From Planctomycetales bacterium (lineage in GTDB: Bacteria > 4484-113): DNA of 64,000 bases. The notes below the pieces were generated by a model. The model saw only the letters and a list, made by a program, of their open reading frames with translations. It searched no databases and was not told where the DNA came from. Below, one piece after another: positions 35,964-38,802 of the stretch (its first letter is position 1; each line of letters starts with the position of its first letter). The translations under genes were made by a program, and so were the position numbers. The stretch covers positions 240,696-304,695 of the forward strand of contig JAUWGS010000001.1 of assembly GCA_030606285.1 (NCBI GenBank). Direction: 5' to 3'.

Positions 35964-37277
35964 ATGAAAAACGATCTCCATGAAGCAGTCGTTGTACATG
36001 AGAGCGTAGCTCCACCGTTCCCGCTCACAACGGAAGTGCCGCTTCAGATGGTAGGGCAACCTGCGCATCTGCGTGAGTATGACCTTGTCTGGGTCTATCC
36101 GGCTCTTCCCGCTTATGAATATACGTATGAAACGACTAGGATGGTGAAAGCTCGCTTGAGAAGCTGGACATCAGCGATATTAGATTATCTTCAAGCCGAG
36201 GGAAAACCACTAGTTCTAATTCTTTCAAGGCACCAGACAATAAGAAGGCACAGTGACTCAGGAGCGTGGGGAGCAAGATCCGACACCTGCACGATTGGCA
36301 CCCTGGATGTCTACGGTGCTTTGCTTCCGGGAGCTAAACGTTCATCCTATCAAGGTGAACGGTGTACCGCAACGCCAAATTGCTCACCGGTACTTAGCAG
36401 TTTATTTAACAAATTCTCATGGAACTGGTCCGTGTATTTCGACACCGGTGACTTACAAGGGAGAGGTGATGTGGTTCCTCTTGCCACGGCATTCGGAGAC
36501 GATGACAAAACTGTAGCCTACATGATGACACGTGAGAAGTCGAGCCTCCTGGCACTTCCGCCTATTTCCAGTGAGATATGGAAGCAGCACAAGCCTGAGC
36601 TTATCGAAGCTGTTCGTGAGCAGCTGGCGCAGGACTCGCGGGTGCCCATCCCCGAATGGTTGTCAAGTGTAATGTCGCAGGATCTTCGCGAAGCAAGCGA
36701 TGCATTGCGGCAAGGCAAAGACGAGCTAGAGGATATTCGTGGGAGGGTCGAGCAAGCTGAGCAGCGAATGCACAGTGTCAACCTCAGATTTGCTCGGGCG
36801 CTTCACTGCAACGGCAAAGAGCTGGTCAAAGGTGTTGCTGAATTTCTGAGAGAACTTGGCTTTAGGGTGGAAGTCGTCGGTGGGAAAAAGGAAGACCTGC
36901 GCCTTTTCTTGGAGGACAACTTCTTGGCTGCAGCCGAAGTTAAGGGCTGCATAAGGTCCTGCCATCTAGATGCAATCGGACAACTGCTGAGTCATACGAC
37001 TCCGCTTCTGGAGGAGTTCCCTCGGCTGAAGAGGATTGTTATCTGCAACGCATATCGTGAGCTTCCTCCTTCGAAGCGTGACCGGCCATTCGAACCTACG
37101 ATCATTGATATCGCCATGAAAAACGAGGTCTGCTTACTAACCAGCTGCCAACTCCTCCAAATGGTTGAGGAAGTGAAGAGAGCACAGAACGATGCAGAGT
37201 ACTTCCGGAATCTAATACTCTCTACAGTCGGTGAAGTTGAGTGGCCCCGCGAAGAAAACGAGGACGTTATAGACTGA
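35964..37277 (+). CDS. Two-domain protein: unknown N-terminal domain plus C-terminal PD-(D/E)XK-nuclease-like domain
   Basis: 437 aa; C-terminal KELVKGVAEFLRELGFRVEVVGGKKEDLRLFLEDNFLAAAEVKGC...RIVICNAYRELPPSKRDRPFEPTIIDIAMKNEVCLLTSCQLLQMVEEV fits a restriction-endonuclease-like fold (D...ExK). Confidence 0.65.
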   Translation: MKNDLHEAVVVHESVAPPFPLTTEVPLQMVGQPAHLREYDLVWVYPALPAYEYTYETTRMVKARLRSWTSAILDYLQAEGKPLVLILSRHQTIRRHSDSGAWGARSDTCTIGTLDVYGALLPGAKRSSYQGERCTATPNCSPVLSSLFNKFSWNWSVYFDTGDLQGRGDVVPLATAFGDDDKTVAYMMTREKSSLLALPPISSEIWKQHKPELIEAVREQLAQDSRVPIPEWLSSVMSQDLREASDALRQGKDELEDIRGRVEQAEQRMHSVNLRFARALHCNGKELVKGVAEFLRELGFRVEVVGGKKEDLRLFLEDNFLAAAEVKGCIRSCHLDAIGQLLSHTTPLLEEFPRLKRIVICNAYRELPPSKRDRPFEPTIIDIAMKNEVCLLTSCQLLQMVEEVKRAQNDAEYFRNLILSTVGEVEWPREENEDVID

Positions 37278-37302
37278 GTGCCTTCCGCGCACACGACGCT
37301 GT

Positions 37303-37605
37303 GTGATACACTCATTCGGAGGAGGGAAACCGATGAGTGTTAGTTTCGAGAGCGTCTGGGCTTCAATCTGCGCAAATGAAGGGCAGATATTCTACACAAA
37401 AACGGGATTAGATTTTAGCTACAGAATCAAGGACAACACCTTCTATCCAAGCAGAACTAAATACGCTATAGGAAAAGGCGACTTCGAAAAAGCCTATCGC
37501 ATGGTTCCAATCAAGGGGCCCGGTGTCATAAACGAAATAGTCAGAGGCCCAGCCTACATCTGGGCAGTCCTCCACGATTCAAGAATATCTAAAGGTGAGT
37601 GGTGA
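37303..37605 (+). CDS. Small ~100-aa protein of unknown function
   Basis: GQIFYTKTGLDFSYRIKDNTFYPSRTKYAIGKGDFEKAYRMVPIKGPGVINEIVRGPAYIWAVLHDSRI; first listed Met is MIHSF, MSVSFES (37333) preceded by GGAGGG. Confidence 0.6.
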   Translation: MIHSFGGGKPMSVSFESVWASICANEGQIFYTKTGLDFSYRIKDNTFYPSRTKYAIGKGDFEKAYRMVPIKGPGVINEIVRGPAYIWAVLHDSRISKGEW

Positions 37606-37611
37606 TTACTA

Positions 37612-38103
37612 ATGCGTTACAGAGTCTTTCTTAGTCACTGCAGTAAGGATATACATTTGGTGGAAGCCCTTCCTGCCTACGCCAAATCCCACAACATCGA
37701 TATATACCTATACGAACATGACCCTCAGCTTGGCATGATGATTGCCGACAAGATACAGCGTAGAATCGAGCAATCGGACGCGTTCGTGGTGATTTTAACA
37801 AAGAGTAGTGAAGACTCAGTATACGTGCAACAGGAAATTGGCGCCGCACTCAACGCGAAAAAGCCGGTTGTCCCGCTCGTTGGCGTAGGATTCGATACAT
37901 CCAAGCTCGGCATGTTAGAGGGAACGAAGTACATACCGTTCGCGGAGGATGATCCCGAATCAGCTCTGTCAAAGCTCGTGCGATATCTAGCTAATCTTAA
38001 AAAAGGTAAGGAAAGGGGGCTAATGAACGCGCTTCTATTCGTTGCTGGAACGCTGCTACTTGGAGCTATGTTTGGCGGCGACCAAGATAACGATATCGCA
38101 TAG
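37612..38103 (+). CDS. TIR-domain protein with C-terminal transmembrane segment
   Basis: RVFLSHCSKDIHLVEALPAYAKSHNIDIYLYEHDPQLG...SDAFVVILTKSSEDSVYVQQEIGAALNAKKPVVPL; C-terminal NALLFVAGTLLLGAMFGG. Confidence 0.8.
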   Translation: MRYRVFLSHCSKDIHLVEALPAYAKSHNIDIYLYEHDPQLGMMIADKIQRRIEQSDAFVVILTKSSEDSVYVQQEIGAALNAKKPVVPLVGVGFDTSKLGMLEGTKYIPFAEDDPESALSKLVRYLANLKKGKERGLMNALLFVAGTLLLGAMFGGDQDNDIA

Positions 38104-38124
38104 CAGATTAGACCGCCTCTTCAT

Positions 38125-38802
38125 TTATGCGCCGTTATCCCCTGGTGGCACCACCGTCTCCTCTGGCTTGGGCTTCCATCCATCGTCAAATCCCCAACTA
38201 AGCCAGCTCTTGTAATCGTCCATAAGGACGTTAGCGACGCGTATCAATCGCTGAGCAAGGTCCGGAGGAAACTTCTCACGGGCGGCGACGTTGCACAGTT
38301 TCAGTACATTACTTGTGAGCACAGCTTGTTCTTTTGTCATCGCGCCGACAGAAAGTAGGTTCGATAAAAGCTCTATCTGTGATGCTCAGGGTCTCAACTT
38401 AAGCCCGGACCATTTGGCTAGGTTTCTCAGCCCAATCTCGATCTCGCCCCGCAAACCAGACAAGGCCATCTCCGGTAAGTCCTTTGCTGCAACCGCATAA
38501 TGATTAGTCTCGAGTCCACTAGGAGACTGCTCAAAGTTGAGCGCCTGCAGGCGCTTATTCCATTGATTGGCTAGATAGCTCACACTTCTACGAGACGACG
38601 GAGATGGCTGGGGCGTGGGCGAATGCGCCTTAATCATCTTCTCAGACTCTCGAAGTGTCGGCTCAAACTCAATATCTGCACCTGGCAAGCGTGCCCTCAG
38701 CAATCGTTGAAGCAGCATTCCGATCTCTCTTCGGAACAGAAAGAGAAAAAGCACTGCTACCAGCGGCCAATAAGCACCAGTAACTAGAGGAATCAACTCC
38801 AT
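38125..38802 (-). pseudogene. Membrane-anchored protein (HEPN/DUF4145-like helical C-terminus) interrupted by one in-frame TGA
   Basis: ORFs 38386..38802 and 38125..38340 share one frame: ...GLRNLAKWSGLKLRP*ASQIELLSNLLSVGAMTKEQAVLTSNVLKLCNVAAREKFPPDLAQRLIRVANVLMDDYKSWL...; stop at 38386-38388. Confidence 0.7.

Follow-up and report, generated by a model that had tools for sequence, protein, structure and literature searches.

The interval between gpA and gpQ of phage P2 is an anti-phage hotspot that houses old, tin, DUF4238 and other genes (Rousset and colleagues, PMC9122126). Among the described systems that contain TIR proteins, SpbK is a stand-alone TIR NADase (PMC12847820), and AC1 is a TIR plus transmembrane-protein system located in a phage hotspot (PMC9122126).

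The locus described here lies in the window, the whole stretch of 64,000 nucleotides of a Planctomycetales contig that was analysed, and contains three plus-strand genes, ORF1, ORF2 and ORF3. ORF1 has the D311 and E325-x-K327 residues and the same core as the PD-(D/E)XK nucleases FokI, R.BspD6I small subunit, Hef/XPF and HJC, but belongs to no named family in Pfam, NCBIfam, PADLOC or PHROGs, its PHROGs matches being weak and of ambiguous meaning. Relatives of ORF1 are lone cargo at exactly the P2 site in two contigs, whereas the window belongs to a contig from the chromosome of a distant lineage, and ordinary genes flank the island on both sides. ORF3, like SpbK, is a TIR protein with a conserved glutamate and its relatives are single genes; unlike SpbK, it has no separate sensing domain and carries a C-terminal hydrophobic helix instead.

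A membrane-associated TIR is common to AC1 and ORF3, but the membrane parts of AC1 are separate proteins; membership in the AC1 type was rejected, since neither ORF1 nor ORF2 shows a segment of transmembrane grade. Thoeris was rejected because no island protein matched ThsA, despite matches of ORF3 to ThsB TIR profiles (best 1.4e-12). CBASS and Pycsar were rejected as well, no CD-NTase or pyrimidine cyclase family being found among the island proteins. A preliminary description of this DNA stated that the three genes match no system it could name, and this stands for PADLOC, Pfam and NCBIfam.

Gene layout and origin of the island

The three ORFs listed in the preliminary description are present (Table 1). 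Profiles were built without the window sequence and run on the six frames of the window, with E-values scaled to a database of 41 million sequences. These relatives-only profiles recovered ORF1 (E 2.2e-9), ORF2 (5.9e-30) and ORF3 (4.8e-24), and each is therefore considered a real gene.

Table 1. Position of the genes and of the island in the window (residue numbers are those of the encoded proteins).
Feature	Position	Strand	Description
ORF1	35964..37277	+	437 aa; coiled coil at about 232-280, between an N-terminal alpha/beta region and a C-terminal PD-(D/E)XK nuclease domain (about 281-428) with E310-D311, E325-x-K327 and Q340
ORF2	37333..37605	+	90 aa, unnamed family; longer 100-aa form from GTG 37303 (37303-37605)
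ORF3	37612..38103	+	163 aa; TIR domain (about 4-123) and C-terminal hydrophobic helix (about 136-155)
Minus-strand gene	38125..38802	-	225-codon frame, broken or read through; right edge of the island
Acquired block	35964..38802		Differs from the flanking genes in GC3; missing behind the counterpart of the 378-aa gene in a genome of the same genus

The sizes first given for ORF1 and ORF3 were correct, but ORF2 most likely starts at the internal ATG and not at the GTG. This ATG is preceded by a GGAGGA motif resembling a ribosome binding site, and the N-termini of ORF2 relatives fall at about the residue that it encodes. The genes had also been called tightly packed, which is true of ORF2 and ORF3, separated by 6 nt, whereas ORF1 and ORF2 are more loosely spaced (55 nt, counted from the ATG). 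Given the 6-nt gap, ORF2 and ORF3 are probably co-transcribed. ORF1 itself starts 6 nt after the stop codon of an upstream gene of 378 aa. Scans for promoters and terminators gave no matches above chance.

The GC3 of ORF1, ORF2, ORF3 and the minus-strand gene is 0.51-0.54, compared with 0.64-0.84 in the five genes of the flanks for which it was determined, and total GC falls to 0.50 in the block. In a genome of the same genus (G001) the upstream 378-aa gene is 85% identical and unrelated DNA, the start of a lipoprotein-like gene, is found past its stop codon; the contig ends 258 bp further on. The foreign GC3 and the absence of the block after the same gene in G001 indicate that the region from 35964 to about 38802 was horizontally acquired. 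No clear target-site repeat was found at the island edges, and single-sequence searches with ORF1 and ORF2 detected neither gene in the other 94 genomes.

The minus-strand frame encodes an N-terminal hydrophobic helix and contains one in-frame TGA (38386-38388), which splits it into listed ORFs of 138 and 71 aa. Neither half matched a Pfam, PADLOC or NCBIfam family. The TGA could reflect decay, a sequencing error or readthrough.

The nuclease domain and family of ORF1

The restriction-endonuclease-like domain proposed earlier for the end of ORF1 was confirmed by a motif kept in 11 relatives, by the core of a structure model and by Foldseek matches to PD-(D/E)XK proteins. Residues E310, D311, E325 (D in one), K327, G328 and Q340 (ORF1 numbering) are common to the 11 aligned relatives, and closer to the N-terminus the same alignment conserves P33, E38, G131 (gap in one) and K150. 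In the model, an alpha-beta-beta-beta-alpha-beta core is formed by helix 285-297, strands 301-304, 312-316 and 319-327, helix 333-345 and strand 356-361, with a pLDDT of about 70-88 in the nuclease domain and low confidence over the first 230 residues. ORF1 thus carries the D...(E/D)xK pattern on the core by which the superfamily is recognised.

The best Foldseek matches were FokI, Hef and R.BspD6I small subunit, with HJC lower; none passes an E of 0.001, the whole-model E being 1.8e-3. Profile searches of the PDB gave no meaningful match, and no relative of the N-terminal half was recognised. On motif and model, the assignment of the ORF1 C-terminus to the PD-(D/E)XK nucleases holds, and metal-dependent DNA cleavage is predicted.

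When ORF1 alone was used as query, nothing was found in viral contigs and no match was found among plasmids. The family was opened through a weak match to a gut phage contig, and a tighter family alignment then worked for the scan of viral contigs, for which the broad alignments were too diverse. Its members are mostly proteins of 550-600 aa, carried on phages, plasmids and genomes; a shorter one of 459 aa occurs in G290. The relatives known are distant from ORF1 (14-22% identity), as also follows from the failure of a narrower, mostly enterobacterial family profile to recover it. The relatives-only profile aligns residues about 117-422, so that the similarity extends past the nuclease domain.

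Most relatives have an extra C-terminal beta-barrel-like domain (one weak Pfam match, to EF-Tu domain 4), which may be a shared accessory domain. ORF1 does not have this barrel and may therefore work differently from its relatives. This domain is also found by itself, without the rest of the family protein, as the end of a helical 353-aa protein in G194 (locus L021, 2384-3445, minus strand), whose gene adjoins DUF262-like and methyltransferase-like genes, assigned by reading the sequence.

Genomic context of ORF1 relatives

In two P2-like prophage contigs (L062 and L055) a lone ORF1-family gene separates gpA (phrog_91) from the portal gene gpQ (phrog_68). In L004, L005, L006 and L048 the family gene adjoins a repressor-type phage gene, which is of the CI type in gut phage contigs. 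Plasmid-borne relatives were found in Klebsiella, Serratia, Pantoea and Synechocystis; the Pantoea element, a phage-plasmid, also carries ddrA and genes for head processing and lysis, and in one Klebsiella case Abi and P-loop NTPase genes lie nearby. In G277 (L020: 3590-5389) the family gene takes the third place (X) in a type I restriction operon with the order HsdM-HsdS-X-HsdR, in which start and stop codons touch or overlap. The gpA-gpQ hotspot, the sites beside repressors and restriction-modification operons are usual places of defence genes. As judged from gene order, the ORF1 family is found in company typical of defence genes.

The HsdR of the G277 operon has 1214 aa and a C-terminal stretch resembling an S24 peptidase, assigned by reading the sequence. 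Two family genes are broken by a stop or frameshift (L055: 5980-7668, a stop; L006: 4169-6005), and intact copies are present in other contigs. No close copy of one family member was found in complete genomes of E. coli.

PADLOC (2023) has no model for this family, and we found no record of a member having been tested. ORF1 could be a DNA-repair or phage-housekeeping nuclease next to a silent or decayed TIR gene, and the presence of the repair nucleases Hef/XPF and HJC besides FokI among the nearest Foldseek folds, as well as the broken minus-strand gene close by, would suit such a reading. We consider it highly improbable, however, in view of the relatives found in the P2 hotspot, beside repressors and inside a restriction-modification operon. 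An anti-phage role of the putative ORF1 nuclease is likely.

ORF2 encodes a small protein of an unnamed family

ORF2 could be assigned to no family of Pfam, PADLOC or NCBIfam. A single scan of the genome collection, with ORF2 as the sole query, yielded one relative, 56% identical, in Marinisporobacter. A profile search then detected the family in 7 of the 398 genomes of the phylum of Marinisporobacter. The neighbours of these genes vary and include a DNA methyltransferase with a restriction-type protein, an XRE-ImmA-PIN group, a GNAT protein and a NucS-like PDC-S11 protein, among others; names were assigned by reading the sequences, except for PDC-S11, which is a PADLOC match. In Marinisporobacter the NucS-like protein of the PADLOC candidate family PDC-S11 (L002: 4533-5531; 6e-39) is encoded two genes before the ORF2-family gene.

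No relatives were obtained from viral contigs or plasmids with ORF2 alone, or from viral contigs with a tighter ORF2 alignment, and the PDB profile search gave no meaningful match. The structure model, built from an alignment of two rows, is poor (pLDDT 57), and the fold matches obtained with it are no better than noise. Our best guess is that ORF2 is a small regulatory or nucleic-acid-binding partner.

ORF3 encodes a TIR protein with a hydrophobic helix

ORF3 belongs to Pfam TIR_2 (E 5.2e-17), and both the glutamate segment and the C-terminal helix noted earlier were found. Residue E75, within VQQE-I-G, is invariant in the ORF3-family alignment and falls in the same column as the glutamate of the Roq1 TIR; the ORF3 profile also matches SARM1 and AbTIR. 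We take E75 to be the catalytic glutamate, as in SARM1. ORF3 thus combines a TIR fold with this glutamate, the two features expected of a TIR NADase. The hydrophobic helix has a Kyte-Doolittle peak of 1.92 and is also present in two full-length, co-linear relatives of 158 aa and 154 aa (in G093 and G061). The neighbours of one relative read as kdsA, pyrG and kdsB types and those of the other as shikimate-pathway types; both are therefore regarded as single genes. From these features we infer that ORF3 is a stand-alone TIR NADase, tethered to the membrane and cleaving NAD+.

ORF3 alone as query found nothing in viral contigs, and a search of one phylum for relatives detected only larger TIR proteins. 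The genome of the window encodes four TIR_2 proteins in all, ORF3 and three others (C12:8201-8524, C11:36517-36846 and C17:71116-71436), the latter within open frames that are 408, 593 and 1484 aa long.

The difference between the two gaps would fit an arrangement in two units, ORF1 alone and a pair formed by ORF2 and ORF3, with ORF2 controlling the TIR protein or sensing for it; relatives of ORF2 often follow, in distal position, genes for enzymes or toxins. Both full-length relatives of ORF3 lack an adjacent ORF2, though, and no ORF2 relative was found beside a TIR gene, which makes this arrangement unlikely.

Relatives of the three genes were found at separate loci

The preliminary description had proposed that the three genes may form one new TIR-based module, to be checked by neighbourhood conservation, with rare co-occurrence of the trio speaking against it. 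This comparison was performed with profiles of all three families over 79 loci, and its result went against the module: more than one family was present only in the window and in re-fetched copies of it, and the recurrent co-occurrence in unrelated genomes that would mark a conserved ORF1-ORF2-ORF3 module was not seen. A search with PF13676 (TIR_2) gave no match in 20 phage and plasmid records of the ORF1 family and none in 3 genomes of the ORF2 family. In 4 ORF1-family genomes and the Marinisporobacter genome no match exceeded the cut-off, one weak sub-threshold match being located on another contig.

Since relatives of each gene were found apart from the other two in all loci fetched, we regard the locus as probably composed of three independently mobile genes that are neighbours in a small acquired island, and not as one three-part system. 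The N-terminal domain of the 437-aa protein had also been suggested as the sensor or regulator of the module. Relatives of ORF1 and of ORF3 are typically single genes, and we therefore prefer to regard ORF1 as a self-contained nuclease and not as the sensor of the TIR protein.

A lineage-specific system in which ORF1 senses and cuts DNA and ORF2 couples it to the membrane TIR NADase would agree with the common strand, the compact order, the shared foreign composition and the closeness of ORF2 to ORF3. It is nevertheless very unlikely, given that no fetched locus besides the window holds two of the families, that relatives of ORF1 and ORF3 stand alone, and that TIR_2 matches over the cut-off were absent from the ORF1-family records and the ORF2-family genomes tested. 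Against independent accretion, the known relatives of ORF1 are distant, so that a close clade with the trio could be unsampled, and the probable co-transcription of ORF2 and ORF3 across their short gap counts against fully independent genes.

Proposed functions and significance

In the accretion reading, which we prefer, ORF1, ORF2 and ORF3 would have come to lie side by side within the acquired island and would not need one another. ORF1 would be a single-protein nuclease of the defence type, its N-terminal region and coiled coil sensing or binding a cue of infection and its PD-(D/E)XK domain using metal ions to cut DNA of the phage or of the cell. ORF3 would cluster upon infection, degrade NAD+ and halt growth. 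ORF2, whose relatives neighbour a wide variety of defence or toxin-antitoxin genes, would act as a small accessory. The data support the view that all three proteins are of the defence type or associated with defence.

The three-gene TIR module was a false lead and is now removed. We tentatively propose, with the chances somewhat below even, that ORF1 represents a family of anti-phage nucleases not described before, whose members act as single proteins, contain a sensor half of their own and are spread by P2-like prophages, phage-plasmids, plasmids and restriction-modification operons. In this genome ORF1 would have come together with the gene of a membrane-tethered TIR protein and with a small accessory, perhaps as a combined system specific to the lineage. 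The better lead is this nuclease family, which has no model in the dated copies of Pfam, NCBIfam, PADLOC and PHROGs that were searched and which recurs where phages store anti-phage genes.
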